This document shows positions 4,077 to 37,700 of a stretch of DNA of 64,000 nt, piece by piece. Position numbers and translations under genes: made by a program. The stretch is from Parapristionchus giblindavisi (taxonomy: Eukaryota; Nematoda; Chromadorea; Rhabditida; Diplogasteridae). Under the pieces are notes generated by a model. The model ran no database searches. It had not been told where the DNA came from and saw only the letters and a list, made by a program, of their open reading frames with translations. Each line of letters opens with the position of its first letter. Within the stretch, counting starts at the first letter, position 1. Where the stretch lies: the NCBI GenBank assembly GCA_943737045.1, contig CALSFV010000485.1:1-64000 (forward strand), read 5' to 3'.

Positions 4077-4494
4077 ATATGTTACATTTCTATCTATTCA
4101 TTGTTTTATGTTCTTGAGTATTCCAACTGTATATCATATGCTGGTATCATCTGATTGTGATATAGTGAACCATGATAGATAATATTTATCTTCACTATTT
4201 CTCTGAGAAATAAATATATATGTAAGCGAATAGTAGATACAAGTATTCAAATGGAGTGCTATATATATGAGCTCTGACAAAGGTTATTAGTACTATACGA
4301 TAACTTTCTTCTATTACATAAAACTCGAGTTCTTGAAGTTATACCGGGAAAGAAACATGGGAATGCAAATTGATCATAATGAGAATACAATAATGTGATC
4401 TATCTCTTAATCTACACAAGGCAGTACATTAGTACAACAGTTATATTGTATACATATATTGAATAAAATGGAATATTGAATGGAATGGAATAAA

Positions 4495-11309: not shown

Positions 11310-13656
11310 ATGGTTCACTCATATCGACGTCTTGAAGATTTCTTTCGTTTAGATGGATATCAAATATTGCTACAAGTCTTTAATTTATTTGCTATATTCA
11401 CTATGCTATCTAATGTAGTAAGTATCACTTCTCATCTTTTTTCTTAGACCATTATAACAACTTCAGCTCATTCAAATAAATATTGTCAATAATTTGCAAG
11501 AATCTCATTATATTATACGTAGATAATTTGTTTGGCGATAGACAAAGTCAATCTATATTTTCTCTTATGAAAACATTTTTAGTGAATTATTGTAGATATA
11601 TTAAATGAATTGAAGGTATTCAATGTATTTGCTACTGCTCCTCCAACTATTAATGGATGTATATCAAATGGATTAATATTCAATGGAACAAAACATGAAA
11701 AGTCTCATATCTAATTTATAAATATTGAATATATTTGTATTTAGATGTGAAGAATGGATTGAATATGGTGAATGTTCAGATCCTCTTCTGGACTATGAAT
11801 TCATTTCAGTTAATGTTGAGGTTAATTTATTCAATATTAGTATTATTTACCGAACAATCAATTGTTTAGTTCCGTTCATTTTGTGGTAAACAAGAAGAAA
11901 CTTGGTTGGATTCAATAATTCAATTAATTGGAATATATGATAAGGCAAAGTTCTCAACTACAATGCAAGTATGAATATTATATAAATATGGAATGAATGA
12001 ATATATTGAATGAATAGATGATTGGATTGGTTATCTCATGTTTATTCATAGGACAATTATCTGATATGTTTGGAAGACGAAAGGTACTATTAATCGATTG
12101 ATATTAATGAATCTAAGAATTGTAGGTCCTTCTAGTATCATATTCATCTATATTTATACTACAATTGATATCATCATTTACATTTTCACTTGATACATTT
12201 ATTATATCTCGATTTGCTCTTGGTTTATTCACTGGAGCTGTGATCACGTAATATATCTTTCTAATAGATATATTCAATTGAATGCTATTTAGTGTCACTG
12301 GAATATATGTAATTGAATGTCTTCCAACATCCTATAGATTCTGTATATCAACTATAATAACATGGGCTCCTAACTATATCTTATTTGCTCTAGCTGGTTA
12401 TCTGTCTCAAAACTGGAGAGTTCTTTCTAGAATATCAGCTGCAACTACACTTATTTCTGTTATTATTTTATTGTATGTTTGTATTTATTAATATATTTAA
12501 TAATATCTATGATATACTATTTGTAGTTTCCTTGAAGAATCTCCCATTTTTCTGATTCAAAAGAAAAGAATAGAAGATGCAATTAAGGCTCTCACTGGTA
12601 TTAATCGTTTTTCTAGATCAAAGGTCAGTGAAAATCAATAAAAGAAAAGATACGATTAATGATGTTTAGGCATCTCCGTCAATAATTCGAGAAGTAGTAA
12701 AAAGAGAAAGTGGAGAAGAAACTATTGCATTATTAGATATGGGAACCCCTCCCAGTACCGAAAAGAAAAAGAAAATTTATACAATGTTTCATTTATATTC
12801 AACAAGGAAATTGGCCATAAGAACTATCATCTGTTCATATTCTTCGTAAACTATTGTTTTATCTATTTATTATTTTAATGTGCAATATTTCAGATTCTGT
12901 CTTTCATTGATTACTTATGCTCTTATGTTCAATATGCATTCTATTGGTGGATCAGTTTACTTGAATATGTTATACTCAGGAATTCTCAGATATATCATAG
13001 GCGCTGCTGTGAGATAAATAAATAGATAGATTATATATGAACTCTATTCATAGGTAGCATGCTTAGATCATTTTGGGAAAGATCGTGTGGGGAGACGACA
13101 ACTACATGTTATTACTTTTGGATGTGTTACTCTATGTCTCATAATCAATTTTGTTATATTCATGACTGGTAAGAATGATCTAAATTATGTATTCACTAAT
13201 GATTATTATATTTTAGGTTATTCACAAGATATGGAAATGTTTATTCGTATGTTGGGTCTATTTGCATTTGGATTAACAGGATGTATCTTCCTTCAGGTAT
13301 ATATACTTCATTCATCTTTCCTTCATAGTTCTTCATTCAGATAACAGTTGGTATATCTGAACTATTCCCTACAGTAGTCAGAACTCTTGCTTCATCTCAT
13401 ATTAATGTTTGTGGAAGAATTGCTAATGTATTTGGACCTATGGTCTTCTCTATGGTATTTACTAATTTATTCATCCAATCAATACATTGATCATCTTAAG
13501 GATTTTGGAATTCCCGGTCTCCCATATGGATTTCTTGCCCTACTTGGATTAATCGATATTGTACTGTATTTCGTACTTATTCCTGAGACTAAAGGATGTC
13601 GTCTTCCTAATGCAATGCCAATGAGAAAACTAAAGAAAGTACAAAGTGCACCATAA
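11310..13656 (+). CDS. SLC22-like major facilitator transporter, 529 aa, 14 exons
   Basis: Exons 11310-11417, 11616-11701, 11745-11820, 11870-11968, 12018-12083, 12126-12247, 12293-12472, 12527-12623, 12670-12845, 12894-13008, 13054-13168, 13217-13296, 13341-13454, 13501-13656 (1,590 bp, phases consistent). The order of parts matches organic cation/anion transporters: a first membrane helix, a Cys-rich extracellular loop (CEEWIEYGECSD, FRSFCGKQEETW), the MFS loop signature GQLSDMFGRRK between helices 2 and 3, an ES-P motif (FFLEESPIFLIQKKR) after helix 6, DHFGKDRVGRR between helices 8 and 9, and the closing sugar-transporter-like signature IPETKG. It should span the plasma membrane 12 times and carry small organic ions; the substrate cannot be told. 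The first intron, about 200 bp, is the longest. Function at family level only. Confidence 0.88.
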
Positions 13657-13812
13657 TATTATTATTATATTAAATGAATGATAAAGTCCTTTATGTATAT
13701 CGTGATCATTTGATTGAGTTTGTCAAAGGAAAGAGTGAGAAGAAGTTAGAAGTGGAATAGAATGGACAAATAAATGAAGTAGTCTCTATCCTCACTTCAC
13801 TATGATCATATA

Positions 13813-15248
13813 CAGTATCGCCAGAAAGTAATCGGACACTTTTTCATTTTTTTATAACTTTTGATCCAGGAAAGCAATCAAGCTGATCTTTTCAGCCAAT
13901 GTACAGAATTTATCAAGGAATATTACCATGATGTGATGGTGTAATTAACTTAGTTAATTTTTGCGTAGTGATGACGCTACCGAAGTGCACTTTTTTGAAA
14001 ATTCCCATTTCTTTAGTGAAAAGCCCTGTTCTTCGGGAACACTGTGAGAGTGTAGACCCCCACTAGGGCTGTACAGTCAAACAATCTGGAATGGCTCCGA
14101 CTCCGATTTCAAGCTGTGGCAGGGTTGCAACTTTGACCTCCAAAATTTATAACTCGGCTTCTAGATGTGATAACGACCCGTTCTAAGCGCCAAAATGATG
14201 CTAGTGGCGATTGATGTTTATCCCCGAAATATGGTAGTCATATCTCGTCATTTGCCCTCAGGGCATAAAATAATTTTTTGTTGGGAGGACCGATTTTGAG
14301 ACCCTACCGTTCAGAGGGCAGATCTTCTAAAATTATGGTTTCAGCGCATGCAGCTTTGCAATGTATCATATATTTATTTCCCTTATTTTGGTTTGGTTCT
14401 GATTCCTTTCAGACCCGTAGCAAAAGTTATGTTGAGGTCTACTCGGTTGTAGCGAGTAAAGATCAAAATACAAAGATCAAAGATCAATGTTCAGCAATAG
14501 TGTAAAAACTTTTGTGAACATCTCTAACATGCATAGGTGCTTTGCGAATAAGAAATTTCATCAATAGAGGCCCAGGGATGAGAGCAGTAAGAGAGAAAGC
14601 ACAGGAGCGCGCACCGAGCAGACCTCAGCATAACTTTAGCTATGGGTCTAAAAGGAATCGGAACTAAACCAATATAAGGGAAATAAATATATGATACATT
14701 ACAAAGCTGCTTGCGCAGTAACCATATTTTTAGAAGACCCGCCCTCTGATCGGAAGGGTCTCAAAATCGGTCCTCCCAACAAAAAATTATTTTATGCCCT
14801 GAGGGCAAATGACGAGCTATGACTACCATATTTCGGTGATAAACATCACTCGCCACTAGCATCATTTTGGCGCTTAGTACGGGTCGTTATCACATCTAGA
14901 AGCCGAGTTATAAATTTTGGAGGACAAAGTTGCAACCCTGCCACAGCTTGAAATCGGAGTCGGAGCCATTCCAGATTGTTTGACTGTACAGCCCTAGTGG
15001 GGGTCTACACTCTCACAGTGTTCCCGAAGAACAGGGCTTTTCACTAAAGAAATGGGAATTTTCAAAAAAAGTGCACTTCGGTAGCGTCATCAATACGCAA
15101 AAATTAACTAAGTTAATTACACCATCACATCATGGTAATATTCCTTGATAAATTCTGTACATTGGCCGAAAAGATCAGCTTGATTGCTTTCCTGGATCAA
15201 AAGTTATAAAAAAATGAAAAAGTGTCCGATTACTTTCTGGCGATACTG
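13813..15248. mobile_element. long foldback transposon with TA target duplication
   Basis: The left end CAGTATCGCCAGAAAGTAAT is mirrored at the right end, and both are flanked by TA. The arms are about 640-670 bp each and nearly complementary along their whole length (for example CACTTCGGTAGCGTCAT pairs with ATGACGCTACCGAAGTG), around a spacer of roughly 100-150 bp near 14480-14600. TA duplication and a CAGT-type end suggest a non-autonomous Tc1/mariner relative. The arms differ by a few per cent. No transposase frame is present. Confidence 0.88.
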
Positions 15249-15343
15249 TATATACTCACTCTTATATCTATTCATTATATTGAATCGCTTGATTTAGGAG
15301 GTATTCATCTATTATATCTATTATAATCTATTCATTCATATAG

Positions 15344-18300
15344 GTTTAATATGTGGAATGCCATTAAGTCAAGGTTTCTCATGTGGTCATCCATCATATT
15401 CAGCTTTCTATTATGATCTATCAATTAGTCAATGTATTGAGTTCCTATTCAAAGGTTGTGGAGGAAATCAGAATAGATTTCTATCCCATATGTATAGAAG
15501 ATTAAGTGCGTTTTTTTTGCGTCACGTTTTCACGAACACCGTTGAAGCTAGCGACTTGCGGTTTGCGCCATTAGATTCAGCATCGGCGAATTAAGAAAAC
15601 AATCGGACAACTTTTTGAAAAAATGCCTAAAACTCATTTAATTATCGATTGAAGTTAAAAACGTTAAACATGCTTTATTCCGAGATTATAGCTTTATGCT
15701 TGTGTTTTTCTGTGTACGTTTACCAATTAGCATACGGGGAACACGATGCGAACAACCTCCGATCGCAATTTCATCGATTTACGCCTTAATTTTGCACTTA
15801 AACATTTTACACGCGACGCGTCGCACACGCGTCGCGTGTGCTCGCTTCATTCCAAAGAAAGCCAATTCAATCGTGGGGTTTAGTGCTAAATTCTTATTTC
15901 ATTTCTTCATTCATACTATTCATATCATCACTATACCTTCAGGCTATCCCTGGATGGAGGCCATTACTATAATATAGTATTATCCCCTTACGTATAGAAG
16001 TTAAATAGCGTTTTTTTTTCACGTCACGTTTTCTCCCGTCCCTTTGAAGTTAGAGCCATGCGGTTTGCGCCATTAGATTCAGCATCGGCGAATTAAGAAA
16101 ACAATTGGACAACTTTTTGAAAAAATGCCTAAAACTCATTTAAATATCGATTGAAGTGTTAAACGGTCAAATGCCCTTATTTCCGAGATTATAGCTTTAT
16201 GCTTGTGTTTTTCTGTGTCCGTTTACCAAATCGCATACGGCGAACAACCTCCGATCACGCTTACATCGTTAAGGCGTGCAAATTAGGCAAAAGCGAAAAC
16301 GTGTTCATTCATTTGACCTAACGAACCACTCATGACCTAACGAACCACTCACTGCACCACGCGTTGCGTATGGGTCAGCGTCGCTTTCGAAATCTTTCAC
16401 TAAACCACGGTGTGACAGAACAAGAGAAAGCGACCGGCGGAAAAATTAGAAATGACCGAATGTCTGGCGTGTCTGCACTCTAGCCTCTCTCGTGCCGTCT
16501 GGCGCTCTAGCCCCTGATGCACCCTGAATCGCAAGATTCTCTTACAAAATTCAGGGTTTGTGCCTGTTTCAGGGTATTTTTTCTACAAAAGTGAGGAATT
16601 GTGCGTGATTCAGGGTAATTATCTCCAAGGAGGGAATTTAAAATTTATATTTATTTTAAACATTTTTATTTTTCTAATTTTTAAATTATTTTTGTAAATG
16701 TTTTAAACTTTGTAATCAACTTTCAGGATAAATACAGCTTGTTTTATCAGCTTGAAAAACTAATAACATTTTTTAATTTATTATAGTCATTATTACCTAT
16801 TAAAGTAAGCTATTTTCACAGTGTTTATAGTCTGAAAATGTTGTCCTTGATTATGCCATAGATTATGAAGAGTTCGTCATAATCTTTATCGGTCAGAGAC
16901 GTTTCGCGTATTTAAAAGATCATCGGTGACAAAATTACTTCAAACTTGGGTAATACATGATTCATATATCTACGGAAGCAAAATAAAATCAAAGAAAACA
17001 AAGAAAATCCCGAGAAAATTGATTGCGAAAATTTGGAATTTATTGAAATCAGTTTACTCTTACACAGAAATGCCTTATTGTTAGCAGCGTTTTTGGCTCT
17101 CAGAACACGGTAGCTCCCTAAAACTCTGCGTCTCTAACCATTTCGCCGGTCGGTGTGTCACACCGTGCTAAACATTTCGTAGCTTTATGAATTTTGCTTT
17201 CGCTTTTCATTTAACGTTTTACGATTCATTAATTCTGATAGTTCATCTTATCTATGTATGCGTCAGCGTGCGTGACTTTCGAAATCTTAGCTTTAGTTCC
17301 AGTGATACTACTGTGATACTACTACTGATACGTGATACTACTCTGGTGTTTAAATACTTGCATGATCACGAATAGAAGTATAATCATGCATGATTCGACA
17401 TTCCATGCATGATCATGCATGGAATACCCGTGGTTCGTGATCATGCATGGATCTTCCGTGTTCATGCACGAATTTTCCGTGATCATGCATGGAATGACAG
17501 AATCCATGCATGATCTCGGATAATCCATGCATGATCATGCCATTAATTGCACGAATTTTACTTGGATCATGCAAGGATTCAAACACCTGAGTATATTTAT
17601 CTACTTAAAGATTCTATCAATTCAGTTACCACTCACACTTAGCAAAGTTCGTTTAGTTAAGGTAGTGTTAGCGTTAGTTCTCGTGACACTATATTGATCT
17701 ACTTATACAATTCTATCGATACAGTTACTATTCATTTAGTTAAGGTATTCTTAGCAAAATCTTAGCAATTTCCCATATAGATAGAAGTTCATAAGCCTTT
17801 TTTGGGGCAGCTCAGTCCTCAGCTACCGCTGAAGATAGAGCCATGCGGTTTTCGGCATTAGCTTCAGCATAGGCGAATTAGGTAAACTATCGGACAACTT
17901 TTTGAAAAAATGCCTACAACTCATTTAAATATCGATTGAAGTTACATACGGTCAAAAGTCCTTTTTTCCGAGATTATAGCTTTATGTTTGTGTTTTTCTG
18001 CATAGGTTTACCAAATGGCATACGGAAAACACGATGCAAACAACCTCCGACCACGCTTATATCGTTAAGGCTTCCAAATTAGCTAAAAACGAAAGCGAGT
18101 TAATTAATTTGGCCTAACCAACCACTCACTGCACCACGCGTTGCACGTGTGCGTTGTGTATGCGTCAGCGTGTGTCACTTTCGAAATCTTTTCCTAAAAA
18201 TTTCATCCAATTATGAATTGTGCTGTCGTGTTTCATTTAACGTTTTACAATTCATGATTCTGATAGTTCATCTTATTGAGCGTATAAAATTCACTTGTTT

Positions 18301-21300
18301 TTTAAAGTACGAGGGAATTTATGACTTTACGCCCGACTTCTATTGTTTAGCAGATCTACTATTTACCGGCTAATTCAAATACATGGCTTTGGAGTGATCT
18401 TTTTGAGTGTTGTCGTTTTACCATCTAATTCAATTATGTATGAAAGTATCACCCGGAGTGTATTGAGGGTTAGCCAAACGAGCTAGCCCCACCACCCCGA
18501 GCATGGTACTGTATCCACACAAGTATTATTCGTATCAGCTCCATTACAATCAGCTTTATCGTAACAAAAGTGAACAAAATGGCGTGCCAGAGATGGCAAA
18601 GTGTTCTACACTTATTGCATACTCTGCCGTCAAATGGATACAGAAACCTTTATTAACATGGTGATATAAATGACCAAGTACAAAAAAAGAATAAACAAGT
18701 AATGAAAAACAGATTTTTAAAGAGGGAATGAAGACTTGATTATTAATCCCTTCAACGAGGTCAACGAGGTACGAGGCCACTTTTGGGGAGATGAAGAGAA
18801 GGAAGAATAGTGTGAAGAATGGATCTGAAGGAGAATACAATTTATTTTCACTAACAATAAATTATATTTAATACCAATAAAATTTCCTTAAGGCCTTGCA
18901 TCCTTACTACATTCAATTTATTATCTCTAACACCAATTACTTATGTTCTAGCTCCATTACTAACACTCATTGTCAGAATAAGCAATACCGTAACCCACTC
19001 TCATCAGCACGAGCTACCGTAACTTAGACTACATATTAAGTTCCGAAAACAATACTCACGATTGTTGACTCCTTGAAACGATGGTTGAATGGAACTTCTC
19101 GTATTGTTTCCCCCATATTACTAAGAACTGATCATCTCCTGAACGATCAATCAATTATAGTCATACATCCAATTACAGCAAAAGAACACTTGAATAAGTT
19201 GACCATCCTAACGGGTACAGTCTTTTTCAATAAGGCATGACCTTTTTTTTAGATTTGCAATAGATCAAAAGATCAAAGAGATCACAAGATTGCATTGAAA
19301 CAACCAATGAATTCAGTAAGATATAGATAACATACCGGCGTCCCTTTGGGCACGAGCTCCCGGATCGCTGACAACACGGCTTCCGACGGTTTCTGGTCAA
19401 ACTTAAATCGATAAAATTTCAATAAAGACATATGTATCTGTGCCTCCAACTATGCTGAGCTTAGGAATTTGCATCCATACCAATTATTATAATGTTCAAT
19501 CCCGTTTCTCATTCAAAACGCTAACACTATCGCCTTTAACTGAGTTATTCCATTTAACCAGAACTAAGACACATGACATCGATATAATTAAATAAATAAA
19601 TATTTAATAAAAAGTACATACCTCATCGTCTATATTCTCTTCGTTGGCGTCTGCATTCCGCGCCTTGAGCAGTTTCTTCTGCAAAAAGACCGATTTATTT
19701 ATTAATATAACGTGTCCAAGCCAAAGTTTTACGTCTGACACAACAACCCTATTGCAATATTTAAAATAAGCTTGCTTACCTTAACCCAGTTCTTATTTCG
19801 GCGGGGTTTTCCTTTGTCCAATCTCCTCCATATCGATTTGTTCTTGACTGAAAACAAGCAAATCAAGCCTTAATCACCATCTTGATTCTTCCTGATGGAC
19901 GGCTAGATCTTTCTTATAACAGACCAGTAAAAAGGTAGCGAACTACATTGCCGTGTTGGTATGATTTGGACTATTTTGCCAAGTTGACAAGTTATGCAAC
20001 AAGAGCCTTGTTATAAGACGTATCAAAATTAAATTAAAAATGTACAAAATCAACAAATCATAAAAGATAAAACCGTACGTGTATCTTTGATGATTGAACA
20101 GATGTTGAGCCATACCGGACCAGGTGCACAAAGTATGTCTTCAGTACATCCGTTGTAGTCTATGGGAATGACCAGCGGGCACTTTACGAACGCATCGTTC
20201 ACGAGGAAGAAGTGGATTTCGGAAGTCCTCACTCTATAAATAGTTATTTAAATTGATAACAATGCCATTATAAGTGTAATTATAGTAATATCAAGTTTAA
20301 TCGCGGTATAATCGAAACGAGAGAATGGACAAAGGAAAATTAAGAACAACCTCGATATTAATTTGCCTGTAGATGGTGTTAGAAGCGCTTGCCGCCGGCT
20401 CTTCTAATGTTCCAACCGTTGCTAACGACGTTACTGAAGCTAAAACAAGAAACAATTAGATACCAAGTAAGGAAAACAATGATAAATGCGGGCGAAAATG
20501 AACGTAATTTTGCTACAGAGTGTATTGGCCAAGGAATTGATGAACGAGCGTTGAACCACTCGCATAAATGTCGGCAGAGTACGAAAGATTGATATAGAAA
20601 CAAAAACAAAACAAGATAATCACAGAACAAAACAAAAAAGTAAAAAAAAACTATCGAGTTGTACGAATGTCGAAATTGAAAATATTTCGTTCCGAGGGTG
20701 TTAAAGTTTACGAAGGGAAATACTGTCTTTACTCTAAAATATCTTTTTCTTATGCAAGTACATTTTATACGCACAATATCTACGTACGCGTCAGCGTGCG
20801 TGACTGTCGAAATCTTAGCGTTAGTTCTACCATACGGGGTGCGTGATAATTACTTGGACTCGAACTGTTATCTGTATCTCCCCTTAGAACGCGAGTTGAG
20901 CAACCAGTTTCATACCATTATTTATTCAATTCATTAGTAACAAAAGTATGTCAATGGATTTCGATATGCCCCCTTTTCGCGTTAATACAAGCCCGTAGGA
21001 ACTTCTCGAAGGCGTTTTACGGAGGTAGTTGTCGTTGAGTTTGTTCCATGCTCGGAGGGGAGCCGACTTCAGGCTTGCCAGAGTCCAGTACTTGGTAGTA
21101 GAGATCTTGCTCTCCAGAACTCCCGGCACTGAGGTTCAGGGGATTCAAGTCATCTACTTAAATATTCTATCGATACAGTTACTATTCATTTAGTTAATGC
21201 AATCTTAGCGTTTGTTCCCGTGATACTATATTGATCTACTTAAAGATTCTATCGATTCAGTTACCATTCACACGTAGCAAAGTTGATTTAGTTATGGTAG

Positions 21301-24300
21301 TCTTAGCGTTCACATCGCCTATCACAACACGCAGGTAGGTGGTGTCCATCTTCGACCACTCCTTCTCCAATGCTTACTTCAGCGACTCCATATTTGGGTG
21401 GGGAATAGCGCAGGACCTTCCCTCCAAGGTGCCCCAGACTGAGCAGACCAGGGGACTGAGATCGGTCTAGGAGGCAGCCACTAAGCTCCTCGAATTAAGT
21501 CGAGAAACTGCTCCTTTCACCACACCTTGACGAAATTTGCCATATAAACTGGTGCTCCATCGTGCTACGATAAGATAAGATATGATACGATACGATAAGG
21601 TCTACGATGAATTTCCTAAGTGGGAACGGCCGCAGGGGAGCTGGGCGTCCTTGACTATCTTCTCTAAGTAGCACTCGTTTTTGATCATGGCGCCCGGAGT
21701 CACAAAAACCAGGTGTGTCTTACGGAGGCGCGCATCGCTATCAAAACCATTAGTTTACAAGGTTTGGGAGGTGGCATGGGCAATCTGACCATTGCAGTTA
21801 GCTACCTTGGGGTCCGCAGTAAGCACTTGGTGACTATGGGGGTTGTCGTCGGCTTGCACGGTGAACATCTTCTCTTCGGAGAACATGATTGCGAGGTGCG
21901 GCCAGGGGGTGCGTGCGAGTGAGGACGACGCGACACTTCTTGAGGTTCTTCCCACTGAGGATGGCCGCTTTTCTCACACGTTACGGGGTCATATTCAGTT
22001 TCTCCGTCGCTTCCCCATTCCCAGTTTCCCCATGGATCCGGGGCCCATATTGAAGTCCAGAGCCAGCTTCTTTGTCGAGCGGTGCGGATTTCGTCCGATT
22101 CTGTTTTTCACAGCCACGACGACCTTTGGTGTGACCACCTTGGGCTTTATTCCTCTCCCGGGACGGTCCAGTTTCCCTGTACCTCGCCAGCGTCCGGTAG
22201 ACCTGTCGTGGAACGTCAACAGCTTTCGATATGTAGGTTACGCTCATGCCGCGCCCTCGCGCGGTAACGATCCACTTTTTACTTCATATTTAAGCTCAAA
22301 ATGATCCAATTGACTTGAAACTTAAATCATGAACGGAGCAACTACTAATAATGGAAATATAAACCCCTGATACTATATTGTTCTACTTACTTATTCATTC
22401 TATCGATTCAGTTACCATTCACACGTAGCAAAAGTTCCTATTTAAGGTAATCTTAGCGTTAGTTCCCGTGATACTATATTGATCTACTTATTCATTCTAT
22501 CGATTGACTTATGCACCGTTACATTTGCCTTACGTACTTACGCCGTAACCCCTCTCCGCCGCGTTGGACACGCGGCGGGGGGGGGGGGGTGTTACGGCGT
22601 AGGCACGTAAAGCAGATGTAACGGTGCATTAGCGTTAGCTTCCTTGACACTATATTAATCTACATAAAGATTATATTGATTCAGTTACCATTCATACTTA
22701 GCAATGTTTCTTTAGTTAAGGTAGTCTTAGCGTTAGTTCCCGTGATACTATATTGTAGTTTATAATAATAGTAATATATTTATCGCATCTTGGAGAAGAG
22801 AGAAAAGAGAACAATCAAAATACATATTATGACAAGAAGTTGCGACGATATAGTTGCAATTACTGGATTTCATCTTTTACAGAATTACTAAATACATGAG
22901 GAGAGGTCGATGCTACAATAGTTAGATCTATATTGATCTACTTAAATTCTATCGATTTAGTTACCATTCACACTTACATGGGAATGGTGTGAACTCACAT
23001 ATCCCGATTTTCACGAAAATTGCAGGGTTTGCTAAATCGACTGTGCTGATTTCAAGTCTGCTTTAATAACCTGCAAAATGTTTTTCTGGAGCGAGTTATA
23101 GTCCGACGAAAAGTGATTTTTTTAATGTTTCAAATGATTGTTCAGCTGATTTCCCTGAACAATATAATCATAATCATCTTTTTCCACTCCAAGCTGCATC
23201 GTGGTCAAGTCTTACGATGTTTGGTTGGTATTCCGGAGGGATCTTTTGTCATTTAAAAAATTTTATCACCCATGAATCAGAAAAAGAAGTTCACTGCCGG
23301 GGAATCGAACCAGCCCCTTCCGGAATACCAGCAAAACATCATACCACCTTAAAATGCTGCAGTAGGATTTGAGCGAGAATATAAGAGAAGAGAAGAGCGA
23401 TAAAATTCACATCGAGTGGAGAAAAAAGCTGAAATGGCTTGAAAAGTAAAAAAATCGCTCTTTTCCGGGCTATAACTCGCTTCAGAAAAACATTTCGCAG
23501 GTTTTTAAAGCAGACTTGAAATCAGCACAGTCGATTTAGTAAACCCTGCAATTTTCGTGAAAATCGGGATATGTGAGTTCACACCATTCCCATGTTAGCA
23601 ATGTTCCTTAAGTTAAGGAAGTCTTAGCGTTAGCTCCCGTGATACTATATTGTAGTTTATAATAATATATTTATCGCATCTTGGAGAAGAGAGAAAAGAA
23701 GTGAGAAAAGAGAACAATCAAAATACATATTATGACAAGAAGTTGCGACGATATAGTTGCAATTACTGGATTTCATCTTTTACAGAATTACTAAATACAT
23801 GAGGAGAGGTCGATGCTACAATAGTTAGATCTATATTGATCTACTTAAAGATTCTATCGATTTAGTTACCATTCACACTTAGCAATGTTCCTTAAGTTAA
23901 GGTAGTCTTAGCGTTAGCTCCCGTGATACTATATTGTAGTTTATAATAATAGTAATAATAATAATAATATATTTATCGCATCTTGGAGAAGAGAGAAAAG
24001 AAGTGAGAAAAGAGAACAATCAAAATACATATTATGACAAGAAGTTGCGACGATATAGTTGAAATTACTGGATTGCAACTTTTACAGAATTACTAAATGC
24101 ATGAGGAGAGGTCGATGCTACAATAGTTAGATTTATATTGATCTACTTAAATTCTATCGATTTAGTTACCATTCACACTTACATGGGAATGGTGTGAACT
24201 CACATATCCCGATTTTCACGAAAATTACAGGGTTTACTAAATCGACTGTGCTGATTTCAAGTCTGCTTTAAAAACCTGCAAAATGTTTTTCTGGAGCGAG

Positions 24301-27300
24301 TTATAGTCCGACGAAAAGTGATTTTTTTAATGTTTCAAATGATTGTTCAGCTGATTTCCCTGAGCAATATAATCATAATCATCTTTTTCCACTCCAAGCT
24401 GCATCGTGGTCAAGTCTTACGATGTTTGGTTGGTATTCCGGAGGTATCTTTTGTCATTTAAAAAGTTTTATCACCCATGAATCAGAAAAAGAAGTTCACT
24501 GCCGGGGAATCGAACCAGCCCCTTCCGGAATACCCGCAAAACATCATACCACCTTAAAATGCTGCAGTAGGATTTGAGCGAGAATATAAGAGAAGAGAAG
24601 AGCGATAAAATTCACATCGAGTGAAGAAAAAAGCTGAAAAATCAGCTGAAAATGGCTTGAAAAGTAAAAAAAATCGCTCTTTTCCGGTCTATAACTCGCT
24701 TCAGAAAAACATTTCGCAGGTTTTTAAAGCAGACTTGAAATCAGCACAGTCGATTTAGTAAACCCTGCAATTTTCGTGAAAATCGGGATATGTGAGTTCA
24801 CACCATTCCCATGTTACCAATGTTCCTTAAGTTAAGGAAGTCTTAGCGTTAGCTCCCGTGATACTATATTGTAGTTTATAATAATATATTTATCGCATCT
24901 TGGAGAAGAGAGAAAAGAAGTGAGAAAAGAGAACAATCAAAATACATATTATGACAAGAAGTTGCGACGATATAGTTGCAATTACTGGATTTCATCTTTT
25001 ACAGAATTACTAAATACATGAGGAGAGGTCGATGCTACAATAGTTAGATCTATATTGATCTACTTAAAGATTCTATCGATTTAGTTACCATTCACACTTA
25101 GCAATGTTCCTTAAGTTAAGGTAGTCTTAGCGTTAGCTCCCGTGATACTATATTGTAGTTTATAATAATAATAATAATAATAATATATTTATCGCATCTT
25201 GGAGAAGAGAGAAAAGAAGTGAGAAAAGAGAACAATCAAAATACATATTATGACAAGAAGTTGCGACGATATTGTTGAAATTACTGGATTGCAACTTTTA
25301 CAGAATTACTAAATGCATGAGGAGAGGTCGATGCTACAATAGTTAGATTTATATTGATCTACTTAAATTCTATCGATTTAGTTACCATTCACACTTACAT
25401 GGGAATGGTGTGAACTCACATATCCCGATTTTCACGAAAATTACAGGGTTTACTAAATCGACTGTGCTGATTTCAAGTCTGCTTTAAAAACCTGCAAAAT
25501 GTTTTTCTGGAGCGAGTTATAGTCCGACGAAAAGTGATTTTTTTAAATGTTTCAAATGATTGTTCAGCTGATTTCCCTGAGCAATATAATCATAATCATC
25601 TTTTTCCACTCCAAGCTGCATCGTGGTCATGTCTTGCGATGTTTGGTTGGTATTCCGGAGGGATCTTTTGTCATTTAAAGGGAGAGTAACCTTTGTCAAT
25701 ATACGCGTTTAACTCGTGGGGACTCTCACCACGACGTTTCAATGGTGGTAATAATCAAACGCATTTGGTAAGTTTTGCATACATGGGTATGCAAAAGTTA
25801 TTGAATGTATTCATATGTTCTCTCATTCCTTCTGATTTTGCATATCTTGAGAGATTTCCCTACACTGATTGATTCAAATTTGAATACAGGAGAGATGTGC
25901 TTCGTGGTGAGAGTCTGCACCTCATGAGGTGCCCTTTTCCAGGGGGAATTAACATACTGCATTTGACAATGGTTACTCTCCCTTTAAAAAATTTTATCAC
26001 CCATGAATCAGAAAAAGAAGTTCACTGCCGGGGAATCGAACCAGCCCCTTCCGGAATACCAGCAAAACATCATACCACCTTAAAATGCTGCAGTAGGATT
26101 TGAGCGAGAATATAAGAGAAGAGAAGAGCGATAAAATTCACATCGAGTGGAGAAAAAAGCTGAAAATGGCTTGAAAAGTAAAAAATCGCTCTTTTCCGGT
26201 CTATAACTCGCTTCAGAAAAACATTTCGCAGGTTTTTAATGCAGATTTGGAATCAGCGTATTCGAGTTAGTATTCCCTGCAACTTTCGTGAAAATAGGGA
26301 AATGTGAGTTCACACCATTCCCATGTTAGCAATGTTCCTTAAGTTAAGGAAGTCTTAGCGTTAGCTCCCGTGATACTATATTGTAGTTTATAATAATATA
26401 TTTATCGCATCTTGGAGAAGAGAGAAAAGAAGTGAGAAAAGAGAACAATCAAAATACATATTATGACAAGAAGTTGCGACGATATAGTTGCAATTACTGG
26501 ATTTCATCTTTTACAGAATTACTAAATACATGAGGAGAGGTCGATGCTACAATAGTTAGATCTATATTGATCTACTTAAAGATTCTATCGATTCAGTTAC
26601 CATTCACACTTAGCAATGTTCCTTTAGTTACGGTAGTCTTAGCGTTAGCTCCCGTGATACTATATTGTAGTTTATAATAATAATTATAATAATATATTTA
26701 TCGCATCTTGGAGAAGAGAGAAAAGAAGTGAGAAAAGAGAACAATCAAAATACATATTATGACAAGAAGTTGCGACGATATAGTTGAAATTACTGGATTG
26801 CAACTTTTACAGAATTACTAAATGCATGAGGAGAGGTCGATGCTACAATAGTTAGATTTATATTGATCTACTTAAATTCTATCGATTTAGTTACCATTCA
26901 CACTTACATGGGAATGGTGTGAACTCACATATCCCGATTTTCACGAAAATTGCGGGGTTTACTAAATCGACTGTGCTGATTTCAAGTCTGCTTTAAAAAC
27001 CTGCAAAATGTTTTTCTGGAGCGAGTTATAGTCCGACGAAAAGTGATTTTTTAAAATGTTTCAAATGATTGTTCAGCTGATTTCCCTGAGCAATATAATC
27101 ATAATCATCTTTTTCCACTCCAAGCTGCATCGTGGTCAAGTCTTACGATGTTTGGTTGGTATTCCGGAGGGATCTTTTGTCATTTAAAAAATTTTATCAC
27201 CCATGAATCAGAAAAAGAAGTTCACTGCCGGGGAATCGAACCAGCCCCTTCCGGAATACCAGCAAAACATCATACCACCTTAAAATGCTGCAGTAGGATT

Positions 27301-30300
27301 TGAGCGAGAATATAAGTGAAGAGAAGAGCGATAAAATTCACATCGAGTGGAGAAAAAAGCTGAAAAATCAGCTGAAAATGGCTTGAAAAGTAAAAAAATC
27401 GCTCTTTTCCGGTCTATAACTCGCATCAGAAAAACATTTCGCAGGTTTTTAATGCAGATTTGGAATCAGCGTATTCGAGTTAGTATTCCCTGCAACTTTC
27501 GTGAAAATAGGGAAATGTGAGTTCACACCATTCCCATGTTAGCAATGTTCCTTAAGTTAAGGAAGTCTTAGCGTTAGCTCCCGTGATACTATATTGTAGT
27601 TTATAATAATAATAATAATAATAATATATTTATCGCATCTTGGAGAAGAGAGAAAAGAAGTGAGAAAAGAGAACAATCAAAATACATATTATGACAAGAA
27701 GTTGCGACGATATAGTTGCAATTACTGGATTTCATCTTTTACAGAATTACTAAATACATGAGGAGAGGTCGATGCTACAATAGTTAGATTTATATTGATC
27801 TACTTAAATTCTATCGATTTAGTTACCATTCACACTTACATGGGAATGGTGTGAACTCACATATCCCGATTTTCACGAAAATTACAGGGTTTACTAAATC
27901 GACTGTGCTGATTTCAAGTCTGCTTTAAAAACCTGCAAAATGTTTTTCTGGAGCGAGTTATAGTCCGACGAAAAGTGATTTTTTTAATGTTTCAAATGAT
28001 TGTTCAGCTGATTTCCCTGAGCAATATAATCATAATCATCTTTTTCCACTCCAAGCTGCATCGTGGTCAAGTCTTACGATGTTTGGTTGGTATTCCGGAG
28101 GTATCTTTTGTCATTTAAAAAGTTTTATCACCCATGAATCAGAAAAAGAAGTTCACTGCCGGGGAATCGAACCAGCCCCTTCCGGAATACCCGCAAAACA
28201 TCATACCACCTTAAAATGCTGCAGTAGGATTTGAGCGAGAATATAAGAGAAGAGAAGAGCGATAAAATTCACATCGAGTGAAGAAAAAAGCTGAAAAATC
28301 AGCTGAAAATGGCTTGAAAAGTAAAAAAAATCGCTCTTTTCCGGTCTATAACTCGCTTCAGAAAAACATTTCGCAGGTTTTTAAAGCAGACTTGAAATCA
28401 GCACAGTCGATTTAGTAAACCCTGCAATTTTCGTGAAAATCGGGATATGTGAGTTCACACCATTCCCATGTTACCAATGTTCCTTAAGTTAAGGAAGTCT
28501 TAGCGTTAGCTCCCGTGATACTATATTGTAGTTTATAATAATATATTTATCGCATCTTGGAGAAGAGAGAAAAGAAGTGAGAAAAGAGAACAATCAAAAT
28601 ACATATTATGACAAGAAGTTGCGACGATATAGTTGCAATTACTGGATTTCATCTTTTACAGAATTACTAAATACATGAGGAGAGGTCGATGCTACAATAG
28701 TTAGATCTATATTGATCTACTTAAAGATTCTATCGATTTAGTTACCATTCACACTTAGCAATGTTCCTTAAGTTAAGGTAGTCTTAGCGTTAGCTCCCGT
28801 GATACTATATTGTAGTTTATAATAATAATAATAATAATAATATATTTATCGCATCTTGGAGAAGAGAGAAAAGAAGTGAGAAAAGAGAACAATCAAAATA
28901 CATATTATGACAAGAAGTTGCGACGATATTGTTGAAATTACTGGATTGCAACTTTTACAGAATTACTAAATGCATGAGGAGAGGTCGATGCTACAATAGT
29001 TAGATTTATATTGATCTACTTAAATTCTATCGATTTAGTTACCATTCACACTTACATGGGAATGGTGTGAACTCACATATCCCGATTTTCACGAAAATTG
29101 CAGGGTTTACTAAATCGACTGTGCTGATTTCAAGTCTGCTTTAAAAACCTGCAAAATGTTTTTCTGGAGCGAGTTATAGTCCGACGAAAAGTGATTTTTT
29201 TAATGTTTCAAATGATTGTTCAGCTGATTTCCCTGAGCAATATAATCATAATCATCTTTTTCCACTCCAAGCTGCATCGTGGTCAAGTCTTACGATGTTT
29301 GGTTGGTATTCCGGAGGTATCTTTTGTCATTTAAAAAGTTTTATCACCCATGAATCAGAAAAAGAAGTTCACTGCCGGGGAATCGAACCAGCCCCTTCCG
29401 GAATACCCGCAAAACATCATACCACCTTAAAATGCTGCAGTAGGATTTGAGCGAGAATATAAGAGAAGAGAAGAGCGATAAAATTCACATCGAGTGAAGA
29501 AAAAAGCTGAAAAATCAGCTGAAAATGGCTTGAAAAGTAAAAAAAATCGCTCTTTTCCGGTCTATAACTCGCTTCAGAAAAACATTTCGCAGGTTTTTAA
29601 AGCAGACTTGAAATCAGCACAGTCGATTTAGTAAACCCTGCAATTTTCGTGAAAATCGGGATATGTGAGTTCACACCATTCCCATGTTAGCAATGTTCCT
29701 TAAGTTAAGGAAGTCTTAGCGTTAGCTCCCGTGATACTATATTGTAGTTTATAATAATATATTTATCGCATCTTGGAGAAGAGAGAAAAGAAGTGAGAAA
29801 AGAGAACAATCAAAATACATATTATGACAAGAAGTTGCGACGATATAGTTGCAATTACTGGATTTCATCTTTTACAGAATTACTAAATACATGAGGAGAG
29901 GTCGATGCTACAATAGTTAGATCTATATTGATCTACTTAAAGATTCTATCGATTTAGTTACCATTCACACTTAGCAATGTTCCTTAAGTTAAGGTAGTCT
30001 TAGCGTTAGCTCCCGTGATACTATATTGTAGTTTATAATAATAATAATAATAATAATATATTTATCGCATCTTGGAGAAGAGAGAAAAGAAGTGAGAAAA
30101 GAGAACAATCAAAATACATATTATGACAAGAAGTTGCGACGATATTGTTGAAATTACTGGATTGCAACTTTTACAGAATTACTAAATGCATGAGGAGAGG
30201 TCGATGCTACAATAGTTAGATTTATATTGATCTACTTAAATTCTATCGATTTAGTTACCATTCACACTTACATGGGAATGGTGTGAACTCACATATCCCG

Positions 30301-31711
30301 ATTTTCACGAAAATTACAGGGTTTACTAAATCGACTGTGCTGATTTCAAGTCTGCTTTAAAAACCTGCAAAATGTTTTTCTGGAGCGAGTTATAGTCCGA
30401 CGAAAAGTGATTTTTTTAAATGTTTCAAATGATTGTTCAGCTGATTTCCCTGAGCAATATAATCATAATCATCTTTTTCCACTCCAAGCTGCATCGTGGT
30501 CATGTCTTGCGATGTTTGGTTGGTATTCCGGAGGGATCTTTTGTCATTTAAAGGGAGAGTAACCTTTGTCAATATACGCGTTTAACTCGTGGGGACTCTC
30601 ACCACGACGTTTCAATGGTGGTAATAATCAAACGCATTTGGTAAGTTTTGCATACATGGGTATGCAAAAGTTATTGAATGTATTCATATGTTCTCTCATT
30701 CCTTCTGATTTTGCATATCTTGAGAGATTTCCCTACACTGATTGATTCAAATTTGAATACAGGAGAGATGTGCTTCGTGGTGAGAGTCTGCACCTCATGA
30801 GGTGCCCTTTTCCAGGGGGAATTAACATACTGCATTTGACAATGGTTACTCTCCCTTTAAAAAATTTTATCACCCATGAATCAGAAAAAGAAGTTCACTG
30901 CCGGGGAATCGAACCAGCCCCTTCCGGAATACCAGCAAAACATCATACCACCTTAAAATGCTGCAGTAGGATTTGAGCGAGAATATAAGAGAAGAGAAGA
31001 GCGATAAAATTCACATCGAGTGGAGAAAAAAGCTGAAAATGGCTTGAAAAGTAAAAAAATCGCTCTTTTCCGGTCTATAACTCGCTTCAGAAAAACATTT
31101 CGCAGGTTTTTAATGCAGATTTGGAATCAGCGTATTCGAGTTAGTATTCCCTGCAACTTTCGTGAAAATAGGGAAATGTGAGTTCACACCATTCCCATGT
31201 TAGCAATGTTCCTTAAGTTAAGGAAGTCTTAGCGTTAGCTCCCGTGATACTATATTGTAGTTTATAATAATAATAATAATAATAATATATTTATCGCATC
31301 TTGGAGAAGAGAGAAAAGAAGTGAGAAAAGAGAACAATCAAAATACATATTATGACAAGAAGTTGCGACGATATAGTTGCAATTACTGGATTTCATCTTT
31401 TACAGAATTACTAAATACATGAGGAGAGGTCGATGCTACAATAGTTAGATCTATATTGATCTACTTAAAGATTCTATCGATTCAGTTACCATTCACACTT
31501 AGCAATGTTCCTTTAGTTACGGTAGTCTTAGCGTTAGCTCCCGTGATACTATATTGGTCTACTTAAACATCTTCCTTATGCACTGTTACATTTGCCTTAC
31601 GTGTCTACGCCGTAACCCCCTCCGTCGCGTAGGACAGGCGGCGGAGGGGGTTACGGCGTAGACACGTAAGGCAAATGTAACAGTGCATTAGCGCTAAACA
31701 ATTTATATATA

Positions 31712-31762
<51 letters not shown>

Positions 31763-34700
31763 TTATGTATTTATATATATATGAGGGGGGGGGGTTCGGG
31801 GGGTTTCCCCCCGATAGTCGCGCCGTCAGGCGCGGCTAGTCAAGAAAAGAATGTGAAAAAGGATGTAGAAGTATGAGTACGTTTATATTGAATCACTTAA
31901 GAGATCGATAATATTGATGTAGTATTGGAGATTAAATGAATATTGTATAGAATGAATAGATATACAAAGAATGAATGAATTAAGATATTTGTCCACGAGG
32001 ACTTCCTTTGATGGATTCAACGGGAAATATTAGAAGATGTAATAATGATCTCATTCCATGTCCATTTACTCATTATTGTATTGGATATGGAATACAAGCT
32101 CTTTGTTGTATCAAACCACGTACTTTTATTATATATTTAAAATAATATAAATATATTAATCTTAGATGGAATATGTTCACAAAATGTAGACGCTGGTACT
32201 AATTGTGGAACGATAACAAAGACAAGGTTTATCTATTCATTTTTAAATGAATAGATAATTAAAATTATCCATAAATATATATTTCAGATATTATTACGAT
32301 TCTTCAAGATCAATATGTCAACCATTTTCATTTAGTGGTTGTGGTGGAAATGATAACAATTTTAAATCAAAAGGAGAATGCTCAAAATTTTGTGCCACCA
32401 AAAGTAAATGAATGAATTGATAAATGTGAATGAATATGGTTATCTTAAGTGATATGTCCAAAGGGGGATCCATATCCATCTCCTCATTCATCAAATCAAA
32501 TTGAATCTTGTAATCATTCAATGAATTGTCCTCATAACTATACTTGTCTATTGCATGGACAAAGAAGAGGAGCATGTTGTCCATCGAAGAGTATGAATAA
32601 TCAATAGTCTATCATATAATTGTATGATATAAGGTCATGTATGTGGATCAGAATTGAAGTTGTCTCCTTCATGTCTCAGTCTAATAAAAGGAACATGGAC
32701 ATTCAGTTATACAACGGGACAATGCATAAAGGTTATAAAAATTTTGTAGTTTTCAGAGTTTCATTCAAAAAATTGAGATCTTTCTTCTCTATTAATTTTG
32801 TCAGAATGAAGAGATTCCTTGATTAATTTCATTTATTTGAAGTGAAATTTCAGATGACAGATAAAGTATGTGCAGATCAATTGAACAGTTTTGCTAATGT
32901 TGAACAATGTATCGATTTTTGTATTGGTCAGTTTCAGTTTTTTTAATGATTTTCTGATAAAATGGGTTTGAAATAAACTTTTATTTTTCTTATTTGGATA
33001 ATAGTAGATATTTGAGGTACATGTCCTCATAATATGCCCATATATATTAATCCCCATACAAATCAACCTCAATTGTGTAGATCAGATGATGGAGAAGGAT
33101 GTCCTCTTGGTTTTCAATGTCTCCAAAGGTATCAATATATCAAACATCAAAATACAAACATCATTTTTCAAATATCAAAGATTAAAGACCATAAATCAAT
33201 ACACTATAAATAAAACAGAACTGTCATCGGTTTGTTCAGACCACGCCCCCTTTTCCCTCTCTTTCAATGTAGTGCTCGGCGTACACCAGACTTTTGGTGC
33301 GAGATGGAACTGATCAGCCTATGGATAAGAAGAAGAAACTATTCGAAAGCAACATAACATCGACTGTTTTGTACGGATGCGAGTCATGGTCTTTACGAGA
33401 ATGCGACAAAGATAGATTAAGAATTGCACAACGAAAGATGGAGCGAAGAATGCTTGGTGTCACAAGATTGGACCGATGGACAAACGAGAGGATCAGAAGA
33501 ATGACTTGTCTGCGGGATTGGATCGATGAAGCGCTAAGAAGAAAATGCAAATGGGCAATTCGAATAAGAGAAATGGACCCCGAAAGATGGGCTAAAAGAT
33601 GCACTATGTGGATACCATATAACTATGCCAAATGCCGATCTCCAGGACAACCCCGTGTTCGTTGGCGTGATGATTTCAAGAAGATTGATGCGAGATGGTG
33701 GTCGATACCAACGGATGAACTAAAGAATGCCCATCCCTTCATCTAGTGTTATCACTTGATATGAATAAAGTATTAGTATTAGTCGGTTGCAAGCCATACC
33801 AAGTTAGCTAATAAGTCAAGACATCATTACTTAAGTTATAAGTCAAGGATTAAGCTAAGTACTAAGCCATAAGGAATAAGTTAAGTACAGTTAAGCAAAC
33901 AAAGTGAAATTAAGTCATGTTAACGTAAATTAAGTTAAGGCAAGGTAAGTTAACAGTAGTGATATACGTCATGGTACATATTACTGTAACACAACCAAGC
34001 AAATCACCGATTACGATAGCACCACACATCGTACATCAAGGATAAGGAATATGATTATTAGCTACCATACCCGGTTTTTGTGGATCAGATAAAGTACCGA
34101 TGGTCAGCTTTGAGTAAAAATTGTCGTACTAAGCATTATTCGAGTTATATGATTATGCCTATTGTAGACTACGGTAACCCGGTTCGGTGGGTATGATTAT
34201 CTCTATTGTTGACTACCGTAACCCGGTTCGGTGGGTCAGATAAAGTACCTATAGTCAGCTTTGAGTAAAAATTGTCGTACTAAGCATTATTCGAGTTATA
34301 TGATTATGCCTATTGTAGACTACGGTAACCCGGTTCGGTGGGTATGATTATCTCTATTGTTGACTACCGTAACCCGGTTCGGTGGGTCAGATAAAGTACC
34401 TATAGTCAGCTTTGAGTAAAAATTGTCGTACTAAGCATTATTCGAGTTATATGATTATGTCTATTGTAGACTACCGTAACCCGATTCGGTGGGTCAGAAT
34501 AAGTACGGTTGGTCAGATTTGAGTAAAATTCTGTGAAGTCATCGTCAAGTCTCATCTACCTCAGAATAGATTCAAAAATACGAAGAAATTCTAAAAAATA
34601 CTGCTGATTTTCTACAAACGTCAATAAACAACACACAACCCAACCTAGCGCACGACCAGGCACAATGCAGTCGATAACGCGCACGACCGGCTGGTAACTA

Positions 34701-37700
34701 ATAAAACTATTAAAGATCAAAACTATTTGGATGATAAGGAAAATAAAAGATGAAATATAAAAAATATGATTTAGTTCTCCATTTGCTCGTATTTGTTGTA
34801 AGATGGAATCAATCATGTTTGTTTATTCAATAACTATGTATTGATTGAAGATGAAATCATCTTCATTCATATCATAATAAATAAATAATATAATAATAGG
34901 AGCATATCTGTTGTACTCAACCACTTAAATGTCCATTTGGTCTTTCATCTCTTCATGATAGTTCATCTATTCCTCATATATGTACTAAAGGAGTTCCTGG
35001 GACATGTCCATCTCAATACTTTTGTCTTGATGGAATTAGTAATGCTATAGCAAATGGTATGGAGACGCATTATATATTCTATATCTATCTTCTCTTTATA
35101 GGAGCAAGAAGTCTTTGTTGTAAACCTGATCAATTATGTTTGCATCCATATATAAATGAAATATCTCGTCAACCACAAAAATGTTTCCCAGGTTGGTCTC
35201 ATTCCTACAGTATACCCATGAATTCTATCCTATCTCCATATTATTCTATCGTAACCACAAATCATTCTACCGTGTCCTCATATAATTATACCGTGTACCC
35301 ATAAGATTCTACCGTATCCTCGCATTATTCTACCGCATCCCCATATCGTTTTACAGTATCCCCATATCATTCTACCGTATCCCCATATCATTATACCGTA
35401 TCCTCGCATCAGTCTACCGTATCCCCATATCATTCTACCGTATCCCCATATCATTCTACCGCATCTCCATATCATTCTACCGTATACTCATCTCATTATA
35501 CCGTATCCCCATATCATTATACCGTATCCCCATATCATTATACCGTAACCCCATATCATTATACCCTATCCTCGAATCATTATACCGTATCCCCATATCA
35601 TTATACCGTATCCCCATATCATTATAAAGTATCCCCATATCATTATACCGTATCCCCATATCATTATACCGTATCCCCATATCATTATACCGTATCCCCA
35701 TATCATTATACCGTATACTCATATCATTATACCGTATCCCCATATCGTTTTACCGTATCCCCATATCATTTTACCGTATCTCCATATCATTCTACCGTAT
35801 ACTCATCTCATTATACCGTATCCCCATATCATTATACCGTATCCCCATATCGTTATACCGTATCCTCGAATCATTATACCGTATCCCCATATCATTATAC
35901 CGTATCCTCGAATCATTATACCGTATCCCCATATAATTATACCGTAACCCCATATCATTATTCCGTATCCCCATATCATTCTACCGCATCCCCATATCGT
36001 TTACCGTATCCCCATATCATTATACCGTATCCCCATATCATTATACCGTATCCTCGCATCATTCTACCGTATACTCATCTTATTATACCGTATCACCATA
36101 TCATTATACCGTATCCCCATATCATTATACCGTATCCTCGCATCATTATACCGTATACTCATCTCATTATACCGTATCCCCATATAATTTTACCGTATCT
36201 CCATATCATTCTACTGTATACTCATATCATTATACCGTATCCCCATATCATTATACCGTATCCCCATATCGTTTTACCGTACCCCATATCATTGTACCGT
36301 ATACTCAGCTCATTATACTGTATACCCATATCATTTTACCGTACCTCCATATCCTTCTACCGTATCCCCATATCATTATACCGTATCCCCATATCATTAT
36401 ACCGTAACCCCATATCATTATACCGTATCCTCGAATCATTATACCGTATCCCCAAATCATTATACCGTATCCCCATATCATTATAAAGTATCCCCATATC
36501 ATTATACCGTATCCCCATATCATTATACCGTATCCCCATATCATTATACCGTATCCCCATATCATTATACCGTATACTCATATCATTATACCGTATCCCC
36601 ATATCGTTTTACCGTATCCCCATATCATTTTACCGTATCTCCATATCATTCTACCGTATACTCATCTCATTATACCGTATCCCCATATCATTATACCGTA
36701 TCCCCATATCGTTATACCGTATCCTCGAATCATTATACCGTATCCCCATATCATTATACCGTATCCTCGAATCATTATACCGTATCCCCATATAATTATA
36801 CCGTAACCCCATATCATTATTCCGTATCCCCATATCATTCTACCGCATCCCCATATCGTTTACCGTATCCCCATATCATTATACCGTATCCCCATATCAT
36901 TATACCGTATCCTCGCATCATTCTACCGTATACTCATCTCATTATACCGTATCACCATATCATTATACCGTATCCCCATATCATTATACCGTATCCTCGC
37001 ATCATTATACCGTATACTCATCTCATTATACCGTATCCCCATATAATTTTACCGTATCTCCATATCATTCTACTGTATACTCATATCATTATACCGTATC
37101 CCCATATCATTATACCGTATCCCCATATCGTTTTACCGTACCCCATATCATTGTACCGTATACTCAGCTCATTATACTGTATACCCATATCATTTTACCG
37201 TACCTCCATATCCTTCTACCGTATCCCCCTATCATTTTACCGTATTCCCATATCGTTTAACCGTACCCCATATAATTTTACCGTAACTCCATATCATTCT
37301 GCCGTATACTCATCTCATTATACCGTATCACCATATCATTATACCGTATCCCCATATCATTATACCGTATCCCCATATCATTATACCGTATCATCGCATC
37401 ATTCTACCGTATCCCCATATCATTATACCGTATCTCTATATTATTCTACCGTATCTAGGAGATGGAAGATGTCCAGAAGGAACACAATGTCTAGCTGGTC
37501 TACATGATAAAACACTAAGAAGAGAAGCAATAGATATACCATTCTATTGTTGTTATAATGTTCAAGTATTAACTTGTACTGATGGTTCATCTCCTCTTAT
37601 TCATCCTAAATCTCATTCAATAGTCAGGTAGATCATCTAATCAATAAATCGCTCAATATTATATTCTCCTTTAGATGTTTGGATGAATCAGATTGTCCAT

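Follow-up and report, generated by a model that had tools for sequence, protein, structure and literature searches.

A copy of a Helitron-type family lies between the two halves of a Kunitz exon in the nematode Parapristionchus giblindavisi

The stretch of Parapristionchus giblindavisi DNA analysed here (64,000 nucleotides, hereafter the window; part of contig C485, CALSFV010000485.1, positions 1 to 64,000 of the forward strand) contains a 16,356-bp element that begins TCCCATATG, finishes with a G+C hairpin and CTAG, and lies between the two halves of one exon that encodes a Kunitz domain. We read this element, with a probability of about 90%, as a copy of a non-autonomous Helitron-type family that was inserted by the RepHel protein of another Helitron family and disrupted the Kunitz exon. 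The insertion can be followed to the base, and the type of event is already known; the locus thus provides a base-exact record of a Helitron-type insertion in a coding exon, by a family of about 50 copies in the genome whose ends are nearly constant. The assembly searched for these copies comprises 251 Mb in 703 contigs. The features that carry the argument are as follows.

15344..15483, plus strand: left part of the interrupted Kunitz exon (cysteines C1-C4 and 8 residues after C4), from a Pfam PF00014 match and the translation; start placed by eye after an AG
15484..31839, plus strand: whole Helitron-type element, 16,356 bp, delimited by family ends that recur
15484..15510, plus strand: 5' terminus (left terminal sequence, LTS), TCCCATATGTATAGAAGATTAAGTGCG, from 5' pattern matches genome-wide
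31780..31839, plus strand: 3' terminus (right terminal sequence, RTS), two G+C hairpins, the last of which (TAGTCGCGCC/GGCGCGGCTA) ends one base from the CTAG end, from a DNA fold and genome matches
31840..31870, plus strand: right part of the interrupted Kunitz exon (4 residues, C5, 3 residues, C6, an Arg codon and one base), from the translation

The exon halves to the left and right of the element were translated separately throughout. The frame at 15298-15498, which extends five codons into the element, matches positions 1-45 of the 53 positions of Pfam Kunitz PF00014 (E 7.3e-12), with the matched stretch itself extending two residues in; 15346-15483 translates to 46 residues and the piece from 31840 to 10 residues, and a donor-like GT (GTATGA) stands at 31871, directly after the right part. 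Across the split exon, the 8 residues on the left and the 4 on the right make a C4-C5 spacing of 12, likewise the spacing in an intact Kunitz exon of the same gene (32259-32408), and hence no gained or lost base is visible at the junction. The earlier note, which had claimed that the Kunitz exon is split and that its missing end appears right after T31840, is borne out by these complementary halves and their shared spacing. Read by eye, the interrupted exon is in phase 1 at both ends, and the gene continues downstream with a second Kunitz exon and five lustrin-like stretches (PF14625; one above the Pfam cut-off and four below), a Kunitz and lustrin combination that points to a nematode source. 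Multi-Kunitz genes are common in this genome, with 84 Kunitz matches, many of which are clustered on single contigs (C302, C427, C653, C354, C232, and C662). Within the region of the Kunitz/lustrin gene there is also a 21-bp tandem repeat of 106 copies (35231-37455), which is open in several frames.

Both ends of the element recur across the genome. Allowing up to three mismatches, the 27-nt 5' family pattern (TCCCATATGTATAGAAGATTAAGTGCG) has 41 genome matches, 22 of them exact, and the 22-nt 3' family pattern, in which mismatches could fall anywhere, has 50, compared with 0 for each of the reversed patterns that served as controls; chance is thereby excluded, and the search for more copies ending in the same hairpin plus CTAG that the earlier note had proposed has an affirmative answer. 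The start at 15484 is common to 23 of the 25 5' loci that were fetched, in which TCCCATATGTATAGAAG follows unlike flanks. The remaining two (L031 and L033) are in register and also start with TC (A|TCCCC, L031 being an inner unit), that is, the 5' end reads TCCC in 23 loci and TCCCC in two. At the other end, CTAG closes all 50 matches of a pattern of which it is itself a part, and the end at 31839 recurs, with T as the next base, at all 11 distinct 3' places fetched for flank reading (12 rows, since L010 and L063 are the same place), these places having been found via the end motif itself. Similarity searches agree with the pattern searches: with 40 of 192 candidates scored, a query made of the element's first 1,001 bases gave at least 79 matches, many of them starting at the first or second query base, and none of the 94 other matches to a left-junction query, in which the element's first base is number 205, starts before query base 193 (40 of 111 candidates scored). 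Copies with other boundaries, which had been set beforehand as the case that would count against the proposed ends, were looked for, and the family ends recur at 15484 and 31839.

Most of these ends also form pairs. When each 5' match is paired with a 3' match up to 40 kb further downstream on its strand, 39 of the 41 5' matches have a partner, corresponding to 32 distinct elements of 5,523-24,000 bp (median 9,888); for 14 of the 18 other 3' matches, what lies 5.5-17 kb upstream is only a similarity match to the 5' region. The window copy is young, its first 922 bp being 99% identical to those of siblings on contigs C423, C278, and C54.

The mode of insertion is most clearly seen in a sibling on contig C3, which sits in a tandem array of ~850-bp units. 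The sequence to its left ends GATGGATA and that to its right begins TAGAG, and the same array offers two empty sites, in one further unit on either side of the copy, where GATGGATA|TAGAGAG is contiguous. Accordingly, this copy was inserted between A and T with no bases gained or lost and no target duplication. Among the 10 copies for which both flanks are known, 7 share no letters across the junction and 3 (on C3, C284, and C71) share TA or TATA, the sharing in the C3 copy being explained by its empty site. Exact ends without a target duplication, as had been claimed from the window alone, are thus supported both by the family ends and by the two empty sites in the C3 array. A cut-and-paste transposon of the terminal inverted repeat (TIR) type was rejected for the element as a whole, as terminal inverted repeats and a target duplication were not found.

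The 3' terminus has the structure expected from the earlier note, with one amendment. Folded as DNA, the final 60 bases form two hairpins (-20.7 kcal/mol, z -5.28 vs. shuffled sequences). The hairpin CGCGCC/GGCGCG plus CTAG is present, and its stem is longer than claimed, with 10 pairs that take in the CTA of CTAG; 5 nt separate the 6-bp core from the terminus, and a single nt separates the full stem from it. All six core pairs are kept in 48 of the 50 3' matches, with differences confined to the loop or the first base, and the stem is broken in the other two; the loop GTCA is found in the window copy alone among the 49 3' matches with up to two mismatches. An Rfam search gave no match.

With regard to the enzyme, scoring of all 16 candidates in the genome gave 13 matches to the Rep domain (Helitron_like_N), none of which lies near any copy of the family; only contig C25 holds both a Rep match and a 3' end, and these are >280 kb apart. 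The family therefore looks non-autonomous. We also scanned the RepHel stretches (12 fetched plus the smaller L044-L049) for both family ends and found no 3' end within 4 mismatches; a 5' resemblance within 3 mismatches at L057 was judged to be due to chance. One RepHel family, on contigs C21, C69, and C342, is 97-99.8% identical over long stretches and has open frames of 2,594, 4,276, and 1,525 residues around its Rep match, with Ulp1 protease, Rep, and PIF1 helicase domains recognised in a domain search on the C21 copy. This family (L050-L055) has a tandem array of ~1.6 kb, after which comes its end, CTAGCACTGCTAG|T. The array units in these Helitrons themselves contain CTAGCACTGCTAG|T, i.e., repeated 3' ends. 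We infer that the window family is mobilised in trans by the RepHel of another family. Under this model, such a protein would nick the parent copy at its TC end, one strand would be peeled off up to the hairpin and CTAG, and the peeled strand would be placed between A15483 and T31840 in the Kunitz exon, which the inserted copy would then disrupt.

In the portions of the literature cited here, canonical Helitrons are described as having a 5' TC, a 3' CTRR, a palindrome of 16-20 nt ~11 bp from the end, insertion always at A|T, and no duplication (PMC4067079), and Helraiser as having the same junctions and a hairpin to which a role in termination is given (PMC4778049). The window family is like these elements (Helitron1; Helibat/Helraiser) in its 5'-TC, CTAG-3', 3' hairpin, T after the end, and lack of duplication, as well as in its non-autonomous copies and the A that mostly precedes its 5' end, as far as the cited part of PMC4778049 describes them.

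Several observations weigh against our reading. Of 23 loci, 14 have A and 9 have G directly before the element, and 3 of the 10 copies with both flanks known sit at G|T, whereas canonical Helitrons are said, in the same cited part, to insert always at A|T (PMC4067079). All 10 of these copies are at R|T, and R|T, not only A|T, is the target of the family; insertion between A and T, as originally claimed, is correct for the window copy (A15483, T31840) but does not hold as a family rule. The hairpin lies one base from the end, compared with 11 nt inside the end in the description of Helraiser (PMC4778049). Two of the 41 5' matches (on C14 and C456) are without a 3' end in reach, and four of the 50 3' matches (on C52, C255, C304, and C375) have no 5' match in either the 5'-region similarity or the 5'-pattern search. 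No autonomous partner with both family ends was found, the loci L044-L061 being without these ends, and the RepHel family of C21, C69, and C342 was rejected as a direct partner, since it is a different family that has the CTAG|T rule in common with the window family but not the sequence. An empty allele of the Kunitz locus was not seen with left-flank, right-flank, or junction queries of the assembly: other matches to the left flank end by query base 809 of 1,024, inside an unrelated inverted repeat (40 of 2,363 candidates scored); only the last ~120 bases of the right flank recur elsewhere among the 40 of 59 candidates that were scored; and the junction query, which includes 204 bases of the left flank, gave no empty allele either (40 of 111 candidates scored). 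Finally, no upstream or first exon of the Kunitz gene was seen in the frame lists and the sequence between ~13,653, where the neighbouring frame has its stop, and 15,344, a stretch that is mostly occupied by a 1.45-kb inverted-repeat element and in which a small exon could escape notice; with no first exon in view, the gene may have been damaged before the insertion.

The family departs from textbook Helitrons in three respects, namely the A or G before the element, the hairpin abutting the 3' end, and tandem 5' units of ~500 bp; in addition, no Rep domain was found in it, as opposed to canonical Helitrons. Because its targets are not strictly A|T, its hairpin is nearer the end, and no Rep domain was found in the family, we file the element as Helitron-type and non-autonomous, rather than as a proven canonical Helitron. 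With this family, two questions become open to testing: how strict the A|T requirement of Helitrons is, given that either A or G stands before T here, and what effect tandem copies of the 5' terminus have on transposition. For annotation, the locus is a warning that the 16-kb gap in the Kunitz exon is a mobile element.

Concerning the consequences for the gene, an unspliced reading continues for 36 codons of the element before a stop (TAA, 15592-15594), in agreement with a 98-residue open frame, and ends short of the last two cysteines. The Kunitz domain would accordingly be lost by truncation or by exon skipping, and disruption or skipping of the exon appears, from the sequence, to be the likeliest outcome. 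Skipping would be a consequence of this insertion rather than a competing explanation, and would leave a multi-domain protein with one Kunitz domain fewer. Consistent with this, another Kunitz exon and five lustrin-like stretches follow downstream, and phase 1 at both exon ends (by eye) means that the frame would be kept. On the other hand, there is no upstream exon seen at ~13,653-15,344 to join, and we consider skipping possible but rather doubtful.

Alternatively, the element might now act as a new intron, with a donor AT|GTATAG at 15491/15492 and an acceptor TCAAG|A at 31844/31845, the frame being kept with one extra residue. The frame arithmetic on which this proposal was based is right (8 element bases kept and 5 host bases lost, for a net of 3), the donor GTATAG is similar to the GTATGA that the exon itself has at 31871, and both exon halves still look intact. 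However, intact halves are equally expected of a young insertion with 99% identity to its siblings, and the 20 bases before the acceptor (31824-31843) are 45% pyrimidine and lie largely within the G+C hairpin. The latter counts only weakly against an intron, since a presumed acceptor near 31984, in this same gene, is likewise poor in pyrimidines. Taken together, a new intron is improbable, and of the two outcomes raised by the earlier note, a broken gene is likelier than a block acting as an intron. It is similarly a long shot that the family ends generally double as splice sites, with GTATAG eight bases inside the 5' end and AG at the 3' end or immediately beyond it, such that exonic copies could become introns of up to 24 kb and the Kunitz copy would be one of them.

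Our preferred reading, disruption of the exon by a Helitron-type element, also has to be weighed against other classes of rolling-circle elements. According to the cited portions of two accounts, non-autonomous Helentrons carry satellite-like arrays (PMC7492417), and the window family is like HINE/DINE-1 in that it belongs to the rolling-circle superfamily, is non-autonomous, and carries a central tandem array (PMC7492417, PMC4067079). A Helentron/HINE-type element, in place of a canonical-type Helitron, would account for the apparent lack of autonomy and for internal tandem repeats such as those of oyster and Drosophila HINE/DINE-1 (PMC7492417, PMC4067079). However, neither the subterminal inverted repeats nor the T|T targets of Helentrons were found in the window family: all 10 copies for which both flanks are known sit at R|T, the first 80 and the last 120 bases of the window copy share at most 6 nt as an exact inverted match (at least 11 bp expected), the best 13-nt inverted match has 11 identities in an AT-repeat, and the element ends CTAG. 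We regard this classification as very unlikely. With Caenorhabditis Helitrons, as presented in the part of PMC6927752 cited, the family has in common mostly non-autonomous copies in a worm genome, but, as opposed to those elements, the window copy contains no exact heat-shock element (GAANNTTCNNGAA or TTCNNGAANNTTC). A keyword search of open-licence papers, with Repbase and Dfam outside its scope, did not find the window family described. Lastly, that the assembly misjoined a transposon copy into the Kunitz locus is scarcely credible, for while there is no second assembled allele for comparison, a misjoin is not expected at both exact family ends with an A|T junction inside a complementary exon.

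The following features make up the interior of the element.

15484..16405, plus strand: 5' region, about two ~500-bp tandem units sharing terminal sequence, the second from 15983 (A|TCCCCTTACGTATAGAAG), from sequence comparison
16406..17167, plus strand: nested 762-bp TIR element with inverted repeats CACGGTGTGACA and a 6-bp duplication CTAAAC, missing from the C71 and C284 copies, with similar copies elsewhere in the genome
17771..18250, plus strand: third, diverged 5'-type unit (TCCCATATAGATAGAAG...), right limit approximate
18277..20776, minus strand: nested 2,500-bp TIR element with a 3-bp duplication TAT and exon-like minus-strand stretches, missing from two siblings (C71, C284)
22700..31400, plus strand: internal array with a period of ~1,216 bp, limits approximate, longer than in siblings C71 and C284
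31575..31691, strand not assigned: 117-bp palindromic repeat near the 3' end, found also without the rest of the element

Two siblings, on contigs C71 (5,926 bp) and C284 (6,034 bp), were read whole for comparison. The window copy is largely colinear with both, the extra sequence being two TIR elements and array length; that is, its 16-kb size is a ~6-kb core plus two nested TIR elements plus growth of the array. The larger nested element (18277-20776) has a 100% identical copy on C296 and identical pieces, split, on C5, and a comparison of one of its exon-like stretches with Pfam gave no family. Its exon-like stretches notwithstanding, a captured host gene was rejected here, as this is a separate multi-copy element with TIRs and a 3-bp duplication, and 16406-17167 is likewise a TIR element and not a captured gene. 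The 117-bp palindromic repeat matches alone, without its surroundings, at 16 of the 40 places scored (1,252 candidates in a first look).

The ~500-bp 5' units vary in number, from two adjacent units and one diverged unit in the window copy to up to six in the copies on C244 and C428. In the copies read for this purpose (L012, L013, and L031), the inner units keep the TC start with A before it, and the copy on C224 (L033), next to a different flank, starts with the second terminus version, which suggests, from this single case, that inner 5' termini can serve as ends. Multiple 5' termini within one element are described for Fusarium FoHeli (PMC5148889); the repeated stretches reported in the cited part of that work are, however, 31-85 nt long, as opposed to units of ~500 bp and up to six per copy here, and the FoHeli termini and targets, unlike those of the window family, resemble those of Helitron2.

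Elsewhere in the element, the minus strand of 21010-22304 resembles, by eye, a decayed Tc1/mariner transposase, and the plus-strand frame of the same stretch had no match in Pfam.

Just upstream of the Kunitz exon, at 13808-15253, lies a 1.45-kb element with two inverted arms of ~640 bp and ends TACAGTATCGCCAGAAAGTAATCGG, which resembles a palindromic element of Tc1/mariner type; 39 other scored places show 96-100% identity to it (40 of 2,363 candidates scored). Further host genes in the window are an SRP9-like gene and an RRM/NOPS gene (NONO/PSF-type) on the plus strand (3737-4114 and 4498-4872) and an oxysterol-binding protein-like gene on the minus strand (42920-44111).

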